Source of the DNA: Lacticigenium naphthae DSM 19658
GTDB lineage: Bacteria; Bacillota; Bacilli; Lactobacillales; Carnobacteriaceae_A
Reading direction: 5' to 3'
Length of the DNA: 52,472 nt
Assembly (NCBI RefSeq): GCF_000425865.1
Contig: NZ_KE384467.1
Coordinates: 1-52,472 of the forward strand
Under the pieces are notes generated by a model that had not been told where the DNA came from, did no database searches, and worked only from the letters and a program-made list of their open reading frames with translations. The position numbers and the translations under genes were made by a program. Each line of letters starts with the position of its first letter. Within the stretch, counting starts at the first letter, position 1. Below are positions 6,077 through 42,669 of this stretch, in pieces.

Positions 6077-6790
6077 AGCTGAGTGGCGCAAGCGGGTGGT
6101 GTGCGCGCCACTGAGATGGTTTTTTATCTTTGACTGTCGCGATTCGACGCGGTATCGGACACTCAGACCGCTTGCCGATTTTCAGTGTCCTGATCACTCT
6201 GGATGCGCGACACTTTGTTATCTTCTGCCAGCTGAGTGGCGCGCAAAACCCTCCTTTCGGTCTTTACAGAGAGGATGACTAGCTGAGTGTCCAGATCCAG
6301 CTCCTTTGGGGACACTCAGCTCTCCGGCCTTGGATAAGTGGCGCGATCGGGTAGGGTGCGCGCCACTGAGATGGTTTTTTATCTTTGACTGTCGCGATTC
6401 GACGCGGTATCGGACACTCAGACCGCCTGCCGATTTTCAGTGTCCTGATCACTCTGGATGCGCGACACTTTGTTATCTTCTGCTAGCTGAATGGCGCGCA
6501 GATTTCTCCTTCCGGTCTTTACAGAGAGAATGGCTGGCTGAGTGTCCAGATTCAGCCGCTTTGGGGACACTCAGCCCTTCGGTTTTGTAGAAGTGACGCG
6601 ATCGGGTAGCTTGCACGACACTTCGATGGTTTTTGATCTTTGACTGTCCTGATTCGACGCGGTATCGGACACTCAGACCGCCTGCCGATTTTCAGTGTCC
6701 TGATCACTCTGGATGCGCGACACTTTGTTATCTTCTGCCAGCTGAGTGGCGCGCAAATCATTCCTTCCGGTCTTTCGCATAAAAAAATGC
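6077..6790. repeat. Tandem array A: three 255-bp units of GAGTGTC/GACACTC inverted repeats
   Basis: The 800 bp between the cyclase and esterase genes is a tandem array. The anchor CGCCACTGAG(ATGG) occurs at 6106 and 6361, and its diverged form CGACACTTCG at 6616, giving periods of exactly 255. Each unit contains CTGAGTGTCC facing GGACACTCAG and TGAGTGGCGCG facing CGCGCCACT, so several hairpins can form per unit. Open frames across the array are by-products of the repeat. The last part (about 6780-6858) is not repeated. Confidence 0.85.
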
Positions 6791-8714: not shown

Positions 8715-8788
8715 GGTCCTATAGCTCAGGTGGATAGAGCAAACGTTTCCTAAACGTTAGGTCGGGGGTTCGAATCCCTCTAGGATCA
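8715..8788 (+). tRNA. tRNA-Arg (anticodon CCT)
   Basis: A complete cloverleaf can be folded by eye. The acceptor stem is GGTCCTA with TAGGATC, the D-arm GCTC/GAGC, the anticodon stem AACGT/ACGTT with loop TTCCTAA, and the T-arm GGGGG/CCCTC around TTCGAAT. The loop gives anticodon CCT, reading AGG. CCA is not encoded. It is a single, isolated tRNA on the plus strand among minus-strand genes. Confidence 0.96.
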
Positions 8789-11667: not shown

Positions 11668-11800
11668 GTGCCAGCCTCCTCCCTTACAATTGATACATTA
11701 CCCACTTCGCTTATCCTTATTTTACTCGATATCTCTTTCAATACACAAATTTTTACTCTTCAAAAAATAGGAAAGCTTTTTAAGCCGCTCTGTTTCCAGC

Positions 11801-11987
11801 AAAAATAGGACACTATCCCCTGAATGAGCATCCTGCGCAATGGGGAAGGGTATCTTTTTTGCACAGAAACAGGCTTAAAAAGCTAGACAAGAAAAAAAGC
11901 TTTTTGACCCTGATCTGACTCTGTAAAAAAAGATACCTCCACCCCCGAATGAGCATCCTGCGCAATGGGGTGGAGGTATCTTTTTTT
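11801..11987. repeat. Two large hairpin repeats (family b), one with a perfect 21-bp stem
   Basis: In the second copy 11925-11945 and 11967-11987 are perfect 21-base complements (A7, GATACCTCCACCCC and its complement, T7) around a 21-base loop. The first copy (11801-11860) has the same inner segment TGAATGAGCATCCTGCGCAA between CCCC and GGGG, but mismatched outer arms. Between them lies a linker ending GACTCTGTAAAAAA that matches the ACAGAGTCAG linker beside 9676. A partial third copy starts near 12053. Confidence 0.85.
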
Positions 11988-12075
11988 CCAAGAGTCAAGG
12001 GTCGAAAATCTAGACACGAAGGAAAGCTTTTTAAGCCGCTCTGTTTCCAGCAAAAATAGGACCTTTTCCCGGAAT

Positions 12076-12225
12076 GGGACAGTGCTAACGAACTTGATCA
12101 TACGATTGTGCATAGAATCTGAAGAAGTTTAAGTGAATATGGACGAAACTTCTTTAGATAACAGATAAACTGAAGGAGTTTAAGTGAAGATGGACAAAAC
12201 TCCTGCAGATAGACTCCCATTCTCT
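12076..12225 (-). repeat. Hairpin repeat (family c), reversed copy
   Basis: Read on the minus strand this holds two hairpins: GGAGTTTTGTCC...AAACTCC and GAAGTTTCGTCC...AAACTTC. The arms differ but each pair still matches, so the structure is kept. CTAACGAACTTGATCATACGATT at its far end resembles the hairpin at 22255-22292. Nothing else is visible in the remaining bases up to the terminator at 12336. Confidence 0.65.
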
Positions 12226-16539: not shown

Positions 16540-17440
16540 TAGAACGGCTGGCTGAGTGTCCAGATTCGACTTGATAGAGGACACTCTTAGAGAAAAAACA
16601 GGCTGAGTGTCGCGATCGAGCTGCTTTCTGGACACTCAGCTTCCAATACTGGATCAAGTGACCGGAATGGATGGTTTGCGCGCCACTGAGATGGCCTTTC
16701 TTCGTTGAGTGGCGCGATTCGATCCGGTACTGGACACTTGGAAGTGTCTGCCGGGCTTCACTGTCGCAATCGACCGCGATTCAAGACACTCGCTTATCTT
16801 CTGCTAGTTGAGTGTCCCGCAAATCCTTCCTTCCGGTCTTTATTTGGAAAACGGCTGGCTGAGTGTCCAGATTTGACTTGATAGAGGACACTCCTAGAGA
16901 AAAAATAGACTGAGTGTCGCGATCGAGCTGCTTTCTGGACACTCAGCTTTCAATACTTGTTTTAGTGACCAGATCGGGTAGTGTGCGCGCCACTGAGATG
17001 GTATTTCCTCGTTGAGTGGCGCGATTCGATTCGGTACTGGACACTTGGAGTGTCTGCCGGCTTTCACTGTCGCAATCGACCGCGATTCGAGACACTCCCT
17101 TATCTTCTGCTAGTTGAGTGTCCTGCAAATCCTTCCTTCCGGTCTTTATATGGAAAACGGCTGGCTGAGTGTCCAGATTTGGCTTGATAGAGGACACTCC
17201 TAGAGAAAAAACAGGCTGAGTGTCGCGATCGAGCTGCTTTCTGGACACTCAGCATCCAATACTGGTTTTAGTGACCGGAATGGGTAGTGTGCGCGCCACT
17301 GAGATAGTATTTCTTCGTTGAGTGGCGCGATTCGATCCGGTACTGGACACTTGGAAGTGTCTGCCGGCTTTCACTGTCGCAATCGACCGCGATTCGAGAC
17401 ACTCGCTTATCTTCTGCTAGTTGAGTGGCGCGCAAGTCTC
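16540..17440. repeat. Tandem array B: units of 306/307 bp related to array A
   Basis: CGCCACTGAGAT recurs at 16681, 16988 and 17294, giving periods of 307 and 306. Each unit contains GAGTGTCC facing GGACACTC (for example CTGAGTGTCC...AGAGGACACTC), CTGAGTGTCGCGATCGAG facing GGACACTCAG, and GAGTGGCGCG facing CGCGCCACT. The short motifs are shared with array A but the unit is 50 bp longer and the linkers differ. The open frames in this stretch look like repeat artefacts. Bases 17440-17535 hold part of a family (d) element. Confidence 0.85.
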
Positions 17441-17535
17441 TCCTTCTGCTCCAACCCCTCATTTCTGTGCGCAAAACTCCACTCTCTGGTTGAAACGAGT
17501 TGCGCTTTGCAGAAATGCGGTTGCTTCGTTGGGCT

Positions 17536-22458: not shown

Positions 22459-23730
22459 CTACGCTATTGGAGGTGTTCCTTCAGCGTTTGACACAACTGC
22501 ATCCATTTGGACTAAAGCATCTTGAGGTAGAGCAGATACGCCAACTATTGTCCGAGCGGGAACGCCATCTGGGAAGAAAGTTGTGTAGGCTTCGTTTACA
22601 GCATCACTATCCGCAATATTTTTAAGGTAGATGGTGACTTTGACAACATCCTCCATTACATGGTCGATACTTTCAATAATTGCTTGAATATGCTTCAAGC
22701 ATTGTGTAGCTTGCTCTTTGACATCAGCGGCGACTATTTTACCCGTTTTTGGATCCACAGGTAATTGAGCGGAAATATGATTGTAATGAGAAAAAGCGAC
22801 AGTTTGTGTAGATAGGGAACTTTTTGGTGCCTTTTCTGTATTGTTTGCTTCAATGATCAGGCCGTGTCTGTCTTCGACAAGTTGAGGAGGTGTACCGTCT
22901 CCGTGAGATACCACTGCATCGATTTGTACCAAAGCACCCATCGGTAAATCTGAAACAGCCACGACTGTCCGAGCAGGAACATAGGCTACGGCTCTAGCGA
23001 TAGCTGAGTCAGGGAAAAAGGTTGTGTACACTTCATTGACGGCTTCGCTATCAGAGAAGTTTTTTAGATAAATAGTGATTTTAACAATATCGTCAAATGG
23101 AACGTCAATACTTTCTAAAATAGCTTTGATATTTTTTAAAGATTGCGCTGTTTGAGCTTTTACATCCCCCTCTATCACTCTACCTGATTTTGGATCGATC
23201 GGTAATTGAGCCGATAGATTATTGTAATGAGAAAAAGCGACAGATTGAGTGGATAAAGAACTCAGTGGTGCATTAGCTGTATTATTTGTCAGTTTTATAA
23301 GGTCACCCGATTGTGGTGCATCCGGGATCGTGCCTTCTCCATGTGAAACGAGTGCATCGATTTGTACCAGAGCATCCATCGGTAAGGCCACAACGGCAAC
23401 TGCTGTCCGTGTAGGAGTATAAGTTGGGAAGAAGGTTTTATATACTTCATCGACTTTATCCACGTCTTTGATATTCTTGACAAACACAGTGATTTTGACA
23501 ACATCACTCATAACGTGATCGATACTTTCTACGATTGCCTTGATATTTTTAAAGCATTGTTCGGCCTGTGCCTTTACATCTCCCGCTACCAATTTACCCG
23601 ATTGTGGATCGATGGGTAATTGAGCCGATAGATTATTGTAATGAGAGTAAGCTACCATTTGTGAAAAGGGACCGCTATTTTGTGGAGCGTTTTTCGTGTT
23701 TCTTGGTGATACTGCGTTATAGTTGCTCAT
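22459..23730 (-). CDS. Triple-domain RidA (YjgF/YER057c/UK114) protein
   Basis: Three RidA domains lie in tandem in one 423-aa chain (about 1-130, 131-275, 276-423), while standard RidA is about 125 aa and forms trimers. RidA hydrolyses reactive 2-aminoacrylate imines to ketoacids. Each domain has SHYNxLSAQLPxDP, DVVKITxFxKN and an active-site-like Arg in (T/A)RTxVxVxxLP, followed by ALVQIDAVVSH. The middle domain carries a nine-residue insertion before the Arg (AIARAVAYVPART). The chain may fold as a pseudo-trimer. The ATG at 23730 follows AAGGAG; an upstream ATG at 23784 lacks one. The leader has two long hairpins and a cre-like core. Confidence 0.88.
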   Translation of the reverse strand: MSNYNAVSPRNTKNAPQNSGPFSQMVAYSHYNNLSAQLPIDPQSGKLVAGDVKAQAEQCFKNIKAIVESIDHVMSDVVKITVFVKNIKDVDKVDEVYKTFFPTYTPTRTAVAVVALPMDALVQIDALVSHGEGTIPDAPQSGDLIKLTNNTANAPLSSLSTQSVAFSHYNNLSAQLPIDPKSGRVIEGDVKAQTAQSLKNIKAILESIDVPFDDIVKITIYLKNFSDSEAVNEVYTTFFPDSAIARAVAYVPARTVVAVSDLPMGALVQIDAVVSHGDGTPPQLVEDRHGLIIEANNTEKAPKSSLSTQTVAFSHYNHISAQLPVDPKTGKIVAADVKEQATQCLKHIQAIIESIDHVMEDVVKVTIYLKNIADSDAVNEAYTTFFPDGVPARTIVGVSALPQDALVQMDAVVSNAEGTPPIA

Positions 23731-23980: not shown

Positions 23981-24346
23981 TTTCTCTTGAGAAGTTAAGG
24001 GGGATTTGCCTACTTATTCCGCAAGAGAAATCACTTCTCATCAGAAGAGACAAGGAGCCTTGTCTCTTTCCCTGATTTTTTTGTTACCTGCAGGAGTTTT
24101 GTTCTTACCTCATTCAACTCCTGCAGATAAAGTATGAAACGGCAGGAGTTTTGTCCAAATCCTGTCAAACTCCTTCCGTTTCTCTATTATCTGCAGGAGT
24201 TTTGTCTGTATGCTGCTCAACTCCTGCAGATAAAGCACGAATCGGCAGAAGTTTTACCCAAATCCTGTCAAACTCCTGCCGTTTCTCTATTAAATCGTAT
24301 CGACACTTGTGTTAGAACTCGCCGACGCGAGTTCTTACATATAAAT
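23981..24346. repeat. Composite hairpin cassette (family c), four-unit array
   Basis: Four hairpins start at 24093, 24144, 24196 and 24248 (period 51-52): GGAGTTTTG or GAAGTTTTA facing CAACTCC or CAAACTCC. The outer arms alternate between CTGCAG and CGGCAG, and the matching arm changes with them (CTGCAG, then CTTCCG/CTGCCG). Upstream, 23982-23990 pairs with 24023-24031 (TTTCTCTTG/CAAGAGAAA), and AAGAGACAAGG-AG-CCTTGTCTCTT (24045-24068) forms a terminator-like stem. The end holds AGAACTCGC-CGAC-GCGAGTTCT. A diverged copy of the left part is at 29423-29550. Confidence 0.8.
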
Positions 24347-29422: not shown

Positions 29423-29555
29423 CTGCTCACTCCGCACGAAAAAGCCCTTATCTTCAGAAGAAGCCAGTATCCTTGTCTATACTTCTATCATTTTACTGTT
29501 TTCGTAAGGAGTACTGTCTCTATTTTGTTCAACTCCTGCCGTTCTTGACATTCAG
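29423..29555 (+). repeat. Diverged copy of the family (c) cassette
   Basis: TTTGCCTGCTCACTCCGCACGA...TCAGAAGAAG...CCTTGTCT aligns with TTTGCCTACTTATTCCGCAAGA...TCAGAAGAGA...CCTTGTCT at 24005-24065. The array behind has decayed to one hairpin (GGAGTACTGTC...CAACTCCTGCCG, 29508-29545). A 57-aa frame across it is not convincing. Confidence 0.6.
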
Positions 29556-39969: not shown

Positions 39970-40079
39970 GAGTGGGACAAAAAACGTTCAGACTCGAATA
40001 GAGATCCGCATACGCTATCCTTAAGCCACTAAAGTGTCAACGGATAGAGCAACTGGAGCGGATGTCGGGTCTGTTTTTT
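39970..40079 (+). repeat. Long hairpin element with T-run
   Basis: Three nested stems are visible: CAGACTCGA with TCGGGTCTG (39989-39997, 40065-40073), ATCCGC with GCGGAT (40004-40009, 40058-40063), and GCTATCC with GGATAGAGC (40014-40020, 40042-40050). TTTTTT follows. It starts with GAGTGGGACAAAAAA. It could be a terminator or a small structured RNA. A degraded relative may lie at 33080-33150. Confidence 0.6.
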
Positions 40080-40164
40080 GGAGCACGTTTTAGAAAGTAA
40101 CGTTTGGAAAATGATTAGAGGCCGGGAATTTTTTTCTTGTCTACTCCCTTTATATTTCTCTAGT

Positions 40165-40207
40165 ATCTTAAGGAGTTTTGTCACTATTCTGTGCAACTCC
40201 TTTAGAT
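40165..40207 (+). repeat. Single hairpin of family (c)
   Basis: TAAGGAGTTTTGTCACTATT... and GTGCAACTCCTTTAGA pair as AAGGAGTT/AACTCCTT. It matches the units at 24088-24283. Confidence 0.55.
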
Positions 40208-40253
40208 CATCTCTGCTGAATGGTTTCAACACGGCTTAGTATAATAGAAACGA

Positions 40254-42185: not shown

Positions 42186-42215
42186 CATAAATCGTACATG
42201 TGCACTTGTTTTGCT

Positions 42216-42378
42216 CGATAGTACTCCATAGCCTAGACTATGACAGTAATGCACATATTTTGTGCATTACCAAGTATAAATCATTGACGAGATTTATGCT
42301 TTCGGCAGTGTCTCCTTTCCTTTTCTTCGTTGGTGTCACCCTCCAAAAAGTACTCTTATTCACCGCGCCTCTATCCGA
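42216..42378 (-). ncRNA. Lysine riboswitch aptamer
   Basis: Read on the minus strand, the leader contains the aptamer landmarks in order: GATAGAGGCGCGG, AAGAGTA, GGAGGGTGAC, AAAGGAGACACTGCCGAAGC, the P3 arm, then TTGGTAATGCAC...GTGCATTACTGTC, and the closing GGAGTACTATCG that pairs with the 5' end. The sequence and spacing closely follow the lysC-type L-box of Bacillus. Confidence 0.88.
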
Positions 42379-42669
42379 ATGTTTCTTTCCCATTAATTTG
42401 TTCTGTTAACTTTACTATACCTCTAGCACAATTTCAAGGAAAGATACCCAAAACATTCAAAAAATGGAATAAAAACGCTTCCATATGAATCGTTTATGAA
42501 TAAAGGGTTTGCATTGAGAGGCCAACCCAAAGAAAGAGAGCGAGACACAAAGAATTTACAGCATCATGAAGTGGATCGTGGAACAGTTTTTTTGGAGCAT
42601 ATTTCAAAAAAACGCGTTCGTGAAACAAGTAGAGACCGAGCCAAAGACCCAGTCTCTTTCTTACTTATT
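42379..42669. other. Upstream region of lysW and downstream flank of the biotin gene
   Basis: TATAGT at about 42415-42420 (minus strand) may be the -10 box of the lysine riboswitch transcript. ATGGAATAAAAACGCTTCCAT near 42460 has a cre-like core. TTTTTTTGGAGCATATTTC near 42586 resembles TTTTTTGGAGCACGTTTTAG at 40074. AGAGACCGAG...AGTCTCTTTCTT near 42632-42662 may terminate the biotin-carrier gene. Confidence 0.35.

Follow-up and report, generated by a model that had tools for sequence, protein, structure and literature searches.

RAYT transposases, HUH/Y1 enzymes of the IS200/IS605 type, are thought to spread REPs. In the account of Nunvar (2010; PMC2817692), the RAYT gene is flanked by co-varying palindromes, and gene presence tracks palindrome number. 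The system described here resembles RAYT/REP, REPIN and BIME in having a nuclease gene flanked by its own palindromes in alternating orientation that co-vary with it, and in having scattered gene-less copies and a repeat whose presence tracks that of the gene. It differs in the enzyme, here a PD-(D/E)xK protein of the NERD family with a zinc ribbon and a predicted winged helix, and in the arrangement of the repeats, which lie on 51–53-bp lattices and, in distant Bacilli, mostly downstream of the gene. No HUH/Y1 transposase was recognized in the protein, for which NERD is the only Pfam family, the conserved residues are those of PD-(D/E)xK enzymes and the best fold matches include such nucleases; because the enzyme is unrelated to RAYT, the system is not a member of the RAYT family, but it may work alike.

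Enterococcus faecalis, which is in the same order as the bacterium studied here, carries EFAR, palindromic modular repeats of 42–650 bp for which we know of no partner nuclease. EFAR is like the repeat units described below in being palindromic and modular, a likeness by description only, and could be a member of the NERD-array superfamily; it is named among enterococcal MITEs in PMC3733652. The BOX elements of Streptococcus pneumoniae, also compared by description, share modularity, hairpin formation and tandem units of variable number (boxB), and differ in that the passages of PMC3049150 examined show no NERD link and contain no word beginning with "nuclease". NERD-domain proteins (PF08378), which share their domain with the array nuclease, are mentioned in other settings in PMC10910872, PMC4057527 and PMC6563490, and among the papers on NERD found in one open-access library no title or opening of an abstract links them to repeats.

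The array from which the comparison starts lies at 24084–24285 of the window, meaning the whole 52,472-nt stretch of DNA analysed, and consists of four palindromic units of 51–52 bp. The array, its surroundings, its relatives in the window and the nuclease gene to which we relate it are as follows.

24084–24130, plus strand: unit 1, 15-bp arms, centre 24107, 13 of 15 positions paired; covariance-model E 4.7e-12 (training row)
24136–24182, plus strand: unit 2, centre 24159, 14 of 15 paired; training row of the model
24187–24233, plus strand: unit 3, centre 24210, 14 of 15 paired; training row
24239–24285, plus strand: unit 4, centre 24262, 13 of 15 paired, with an uncompensated inner G-to-A change; training row
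23981–24030, no strand: upstream palindrome TTTCTCTTG/CAAGAGAAA, centre 24005.5, 9 of 9 paired, with other arms on the same lattice of about 51 bp
24045–24068, no strand: upstream palindrome AAGAGACAAGG/CCTTGTCTCTT, centre 24056.5, 11 of 11 paired, same lattice
24311–24338, no strand: downstream palindrome, 62.5 bp past unit 4, 11 of 12 paired
12116–12211, minus strand: two reversed units of the array's family, 13 of 15 and 12 of 15 paired; training rows
29500–29544, plus strand: single decayed unit, 8 of 15 paired; covariance-model E 1.2e-9 (training row)
40164–40208, plus strand: single unit, 12 of 15 paired
6082–6775, no strand: sister array with GAGTGTC/GACACTC-type arms, period 255 (= 5 x 51), of the same family as 16543–17446 (73% over 240 bases)
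16543–17446, no strand: sister array of the GAGTGTC arm type, period 306 (= 6 x 51)
C4:29790–30692, in the same genome outside the window: NERD-domain nuclease gene, 301 aa, flanked by the unit family of the 24-kb array

The reversed pair and the two single units to which the first-pass annotation had pointed are all present, the one at 29500 with only 8 of 15 positions paired. Its statement that every unit folds as a hairpin with matched arms is borne out by the pairing counts of the four units and is too strong in the word "each", because the change in unit 4 (GAAG against CTCC) is uncompensated. The alternation it described between CTGCAG and CGGCAG outer arms is there, with the opposite arm mostly matching, but the four units are not four independent events because a duplicated 103-bp stretch makes unit 3 the counterpart of unit 1 and unit 4 that of unit 2 (Tandem Repeats Finder: period 103, 2.0 copies). 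The two perfect palindromes 5' of the four units, which the first-pass annotation had overlooked, continue the lattice at 50.5–52 bp with different arms, successive centre distances from 24005.5 to 24262 being 51.0, 50.5, 52, 51 and 52 bp; by eye, a stretch resembling 23981–24030 is also found upstream of the array on contig C6 and of the 29.5-kb copy. Chains of palindromes spaced 50–54 bp numbered 11 in the window, where 10 block shuffles averaged 0.4; two of the 11 represent the array's family, six lie in the 16543–17446 array and three others are possibly due to chance. With a stricter detector that also required alike arms, the 24-kb array and the reversed pair were the two chains found, against 0.0 in 10 shuffles. 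About 250 bp separate the array from the start of a minus-strand gene (22459–23730), upstream of which it lies and whose single protein holds three tandem Ribonuc_L-PSP (RidA-like) stretches.

We built a covariance model, R1, from 18 units. At E <= 0.05, R1 matched the bacterium's own 2.13-Mb genome in 34 distinct places, only those beyond the training set being independent because the 18 training units are among the 34. The places group into 13 loci spread over contigs C4, C6, C8, C9 and C14, and two of these loci flank the NERD gene on C4. Across 60 genomes, searched with stricter filters that lose weak matches and including the own genome and no second genome of its genus, R1 matched nine at E <= 1e-4: the own genome, seven Alkalibacterium and G030, which belongs to another family. 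A pattern scan returned 10 stretches, eight in Alkalibacterium and the other two in MAGs labelled Heimdallarchaeota and Alphaproteobacteria. When 12 Alkalibacterium genomes were grouped by NERD status, a grouping chosen after the data had been seen, the unit family (E <= 1e-4) was present in six of six with an intact NERD 56–77% identical to the C4 NERD, present in G022, whose NERD is a broken copy with 47% identity to C4, and found in none of the remaining five. As with RAYT/REPIN, the repeats occur mainly in gene-bearing genomes (7/7 v 0/5 in Alkalibacterium, one of the seven with the broken gene), with G030 as the exception. In G030 (L128, 7377–7574), an orphan array combines units of this family with a P1 palindrome (defined below), in a genome that gives no NERD match at E 1e-5.

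The 301-aa gene sits between two arrays both in its own C4 locus (L110) and in the Alkalibacterium loci L117 and L121. The three array proteins scanned match Pfam NERD (PF08378, nuclease-related domain) at E 9.7e-18, 1.2e-14 and 3.3e-17, as the sole Pfam family above cut-off, with membership of PF08378 placed at 65.1 bits against a gathering score of 22.1; in the three elements inspected, NERD is the only long ORF between the arrays. L121 runs from P1 through three units, NERD and three further units to P2, where P1 is the palindrome ATTTTGTCAG-n-CTGACAAAAT and P2 is TTTTTCGC-n-GCGAAAAA. L117 and L110 have a similar layout with extra tandem copies, and L110 has its P2 after the gene but ahead of the downstream units. 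The L117 contig also has gene-less arrays with P1 or P2 and, as judged by eye, one with both. Judged by its position, the window palindrome at 24311–24338 is possibly a right-end palindrome like P2 of the Alkalibacterium elements. In addition, three near-identical tandem 247-bp blocks, each of three units plus P1, adjoin the own C4 NERD gene (L110, 2741–3435); broken NERD copies adjoin arrays at L117 1543–2441 and L120 13984–14517; and a different NERD protein of 231 aa directly adjoins the NERD-array element of L121 (2375–3070).

Linkage of palindrome arrays to NERD genes is general in Bacilli, and we are close to certain both of this linkage and of the co-variation of the arms with the NERD. 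A first set comprised 64 NERD genes that tblastn aligned with the own C4 protein over 230 aa or more (L110, L121 and L160–L219; families f1, f2 and f5), around which we scored, by distance bin, arrays of at least two palindromes with alike arms at a spacing of 49.5–54.5 bp. The fractions describe a non-random sample because some loci had been chosen for array proximity or strongest matches, and the distance bins serve as the control: downstream, arrays were found in 34/59 at 0–400 bp, 4/58 at 400–800, 3/58 at 800–1200, 0/59 at 1200–1600 and 0/48 at 1600–2000; upstream, the same successive bins gave 14/62, 7/62, 1/62, 1/63 and 3/51; and shuffled flanks gave 0 arrays in all bins. A stricter pairing threshold left 20/59 downstream and 9/62 upstream in the nearest bins. 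An array was detected within 400 bp of 39 of the 64 genes, so not all NERDs have a detected array, and arrays occur in four f1 genera and in f2.

For more distant relatives, we used a profile (A3) built from 40 NERDs, which matched 55 of 299 genomes from class Bacilli at E <= 1e-15. Among 32 A3-matched genes with strong matches, from families f22, f34, f40, f47 and f50 (further matches exist), arrays lay downstream in 22/31 at 0–400 bp, 11/31 at 400–800 and 0/29 at 800–1200, and upstream in 1/31, 0/31 and 0/31, with 0 in shuffled flanks; 23 of the 32 genes had an array within 800 bp. The spacing is nearly constant: with limits widened to 30–125 bp, spacings of 50–53 or 102–107 bp drew 67 of the 68 flank votes of the first set and 12 of the 14 cast by 13 distant loci. 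Weaker NERD matches (L240–L254) had an array in one of 15 cases, a single weak pair. Of 20 regions scanned, L160, L161, L162, L163, L175, L178 and L179 had no chain at the first threshold, and arrays appeared in L161, L162 and L163 at a looser one. On a tree of 110 NERDs, 66 have arrays, including 15 of 16 in the clade of the own C4 protein and none of eight in one divergent clade.

As for RAYT/REPIN, cognate palindromes flank the gene and vary together with it. Divergent NERDs go with different arm types, such as AGRAGTTT (window array), ACTTGTTCACAG (L173), GTGGAATC (L231) and TGTCCGATAGA (L300). For the 40 of 62 NERDs that have arrays, the likeness of the arms correlated with NERD identity (Mantel r 0.424, reached in 0/2000 permutations; permuted maximum 0.188), a value uncorrected for kinship through shared genomes and genera. 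Mean best arm similarity, out of 11, fell from 9.0 above 70% identity (6 pairs) to 8.1 at 55–70% (29), 6.8 at 45–55% (59) and 6.0 below 45% (686), and the fraction of pairs with arms alike at >= 9/11 fell over these classes from 0.50 to 0.38, 0.03 and at most 0.01; since even above 55% identity only 0.38–0.50 of pairs share arms, the arms change fast. NERDs 46–52% identical to C4 (G003, G004, G027) already have arms of another type.

The own genome by itself holds three NERD genes with three arm types. The C4 NERD has the AGRAGTTT type, as in the window array. The C28 NERD has GTGTCGC/GACACT arms at 51-bp spacing, which resemble the window arrays 6082–6775 and 16543–17446; the former gave no BLAST match to the C28 NERD flanks at E 1e-3 and is therefore tied to that gene by arm type and spacing only, and the latter gave one weak BLAST match to a C28 NERD flank (E 2.7e-4) and 36 own-genome matches at E 1e-5, none of them on C28. 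For the C23 NERD (L160), inspection by eye shows GAAGTTGCC arms repeating at about 102 bp, and the 51-bp detectors returned no match.

The protein keeps the residues of a nuclease site. Across 62 NERDs with open frames, conservation is 100% for E42, D74 and E87 and 97% for K89, with the spacing of a PD-(D/E)xK site, and the zinc-ribbon cysteines C217, C220, C234 and C237 are invariant. An AlphaFold2 model (mean pLDDT 93.4, pTM 0.85) was compared with known structures, and its residues 3–178 aligned best with Can2 (7bdv; Z 8.4, rmsd 5.9, 141 aligned), VC1899 (1xmx; Z 8.4, rmsd 3.1, 120 aligned) and McrBC (6hz4; Z 7.5, rmsd 3.3, 121 aligned), which we take to be PD-(D/E)xK proteins. The best Z, 8.4, represents a modest fold match; a Z below 8 may reflect a common arrangement only, and matches of middling Z (XisH 6.1, and others) were set aside. 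Foldseek alone gave no match at E <= 0.001 (best E 2.9e-3). The model also predicts a C-terminal winged helix, residues 242–301 matching structures that are presumably winged helices at Z about 6 (rmsd 1.8–3.1 over 56–59 residues). A search of 72,556 plasmid and 50,697 phage records returned no match and no related NERD gene.

We favour, by some way short of conviction, the reading that the 24-kb array is one of the scattered copies, without the gene, of a DNA repeat belonging to the C4 NERD nuclease gene and that the nuclease spreads its cognate arrays; for the movement of arrays in particular to be driven by the NERD nuclease, our preference is slighter. On this reading, the nuclease would bind, as a dimer or oligomer, the arms of palindromes of its own family, the winged helix or the zinc ribbon possibly being the arm-binding part. 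The almost invariable distance of about five helical turns points to binding along a single face of the DNA. The bound NERD would then nick or cut at the arms, and repair or strand switching would copy units within and between arrays, so that arrays would expand, contract, spread and at times be replaced. Such an element would be a nuclease-driven, non-autonomous repeat that works like RAYT/REP with an unrelated enzyme, and the pairing looks like a previously unreported way of repeat spread. If so, a PD-(D/E)xK nuclease has independently taken on the job of RAYT, keeping a cognate palindrome population in the genome, and an uncharacterized branch of the NERD family would gain a function. It would also account for the repeat arrays that lie between genes in many Bacilli and may be miscalled by CRISPR finders, and would offer, in dozens of enzyme-array pairs with differing arms, a set for studying the evolution of DNA specificity, in which "this NERD binds this arm" is a prediction testable pair by pair.

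Comparison of related genomes bears on whether arrays move. Downstream (3') of a gene recognized by eye as pdxT-like, three units lie in G024, about one, decayed, in G025 and none in G018, with gain and loss indistinguishable. Between G302 and G149, two species of one genus, orthologous arrays have 7 v 2, 9 v 7, 4 v 4 and 8 v 4 units; a further site, L259/L268, where just one of the flanks could be matched, has 15 v 4. All counts were made with a loose motif and are possibly off by one, and the pair L271/L256, which is not orthologous, was left out of them. The intergenic site that L257 (G302) and L282 (G149:C8) share as orthologues has 10 units of the GGTCACATAGAA type in G302 and 5 units of the AGACATTT/AAATGTCT type, 52 bp apart, in G149, and the latter arm pattern was absent from the seven G149 NERD loci searched. 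Most of the G302 and G149 arrays compared lie at shared sites, and spread would therefore be slow or old. Neither a duplicated target site nor a clean edge of insertion was found; a stretch of 832 bp that G024 has and G025 lacks looks like an insertion but contains no array.

These data also fit, in part, arrays that are fixed NERD binding sites, used in autoregulation, transcription insulation or chromosome organization, the gene-less arrays being host-maintained operators that the nuclease does not move. We consider this unlikely, yet it is the alternative to be taken most seriously: the position of the array mostly just 3' of the gene, the near-constant phasing of about 52 bp, the winged-helix-like C-terminus and the orthologous arrays mostly at shared sites are what it would lead one to expect. 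Fixed operators sit less well with catalytic residues that are invariant or nearly so in 62 proteins, with arms that differ among paralogues, and with unit numbers that vary and an array type that has once switched at one site. Beyond the reading of nuclease-spread cognate arrays lies a bolder one, which we put forward tentatively and think somewhat doubtful, of a class-wide and so far unrecognized kind of selfish repeat in which NERDs cut at a ~52-bp lattice of their own palindromes, copy arrays to new intergenic sites and overwrite the arrays of rival NERD families in place, with arm specificity diversified by an arms race among paralogues within a genome.

The weak match of array NERDs to the BREX protein PglW, the variation of loops between units in some arrays and the listing of NERD among putative CRISPR auxiliary genes in a figure legend (PMC10910872) could point to a defence module in which the array is a CRISPR-like sensor or guide. 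We regard this as very unlikely, since the loops are short, measuring about 15–18 nt in the unit family studied here, and other arrays have loops that are nearly the same, and since gene-less arrays are scattered. Set against a CRISPR array, with conserved repeats and unique spacers of CRISPR length, the arrays here have arms that vary and loops of ~16 nt that are near-identical in several arrays.

The first-pass annotation had taken the matched changes in opposite arms as a sign of selection on RNA structure or, alternatively, on a cruciform. We examined covariation with the inner core as the only anchor and with 500 shuffles. In the own genome, the variable inner pair was Watson-Crick in 20 of 23 distinct units (shuffled 12.2 +/- 2.2, max 18), and the seven outer pairs matched in 106/161 cases (94.5 +/- 6.1), a count that shuffles could exceed, with 114 at most; in 38 Alkalibacterium units, the outer pairs matched in 181/266 (161.3 +/- 5.5, max 177), and the inner pair was not significant (15/38 against 10.8 +/- 2.7, max 19). 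The covariation claimed for the arms therefore stands for the inner pair in the own genome and for the outer pairs in Alkalibacterium, is weaker for the own-genome outer pairs and fails for the Alkalibacterium inner pair. Even with no selection, an imperfect palindrome could retain matching arms through repair of one from the other.

RNA pairing on the gene-sense strand favours G-T mismatches, and transcription of the opposite strand favours A-C. In 305 palindromes oriented in the NERD sense (77 upstream and 228 downstream, including those between units), G-T and T-G together numbered 121 and A-C and C-A 126; as neither is in excess, the symmetry is at the DNA level, and it is probably DNA rather than RNA that is recognized in the arms. 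The cruciform suggested alongside RNA may apply. Selection on RNA structure, as originally proposed, finds no support in these counts, and it is highly improbable that the units are an RNA structural element: arm covariation would suit one, but in addition to the mismatch counts the array has no Rfam match and the loops vary among the units of Alkalibacterium 3-unit arrays. The Rfam scan of the window left the array without a match at the gathering score, in keeping with the earlier view that no named family has this motif, a view that missed the partner, the NERD-domain nuclease genes with which the arrays go. The scan found only a lysine riboswitch (42211–42381, minus strand) and a tRNA-Arg(cct) (8715–8788).

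An ordinary MITE of a conventional transposase with the NERD gene as passenger, which the P1-units-P2 layout with distinct end palindromes at several loci might suggest, seems very improbable, given that linkage to NERD and co-variation recur across class Bacilli and that the stretches flanked by arrays in the three elements inspected hold no long ORF other than NERD. P1 and P2 are different palindromes and form no TIR pair, and no duplication was seen.

Other repeats share the window with the nuclease-linked arrays. Tandem long-hairpin arrays at 11769–12056 and 2486–2775 have periods of 125–127 bp and lie off the 51-bp lattice. A widespread repeat, GAGGCTGGGAC(TTTT/AAAA)GTCCCAGCCTC, occurs at about 39975–40130 of the window and in L005–L031, with GGACTTTTGTCC at 21 places, 18 of which were inspected. 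The upstream module of the unit at 40164 is apparently interrupted by a GGCYGGGA repeat unrelated to the units, a copy that appears related to the widespread repeat having been inserted there.
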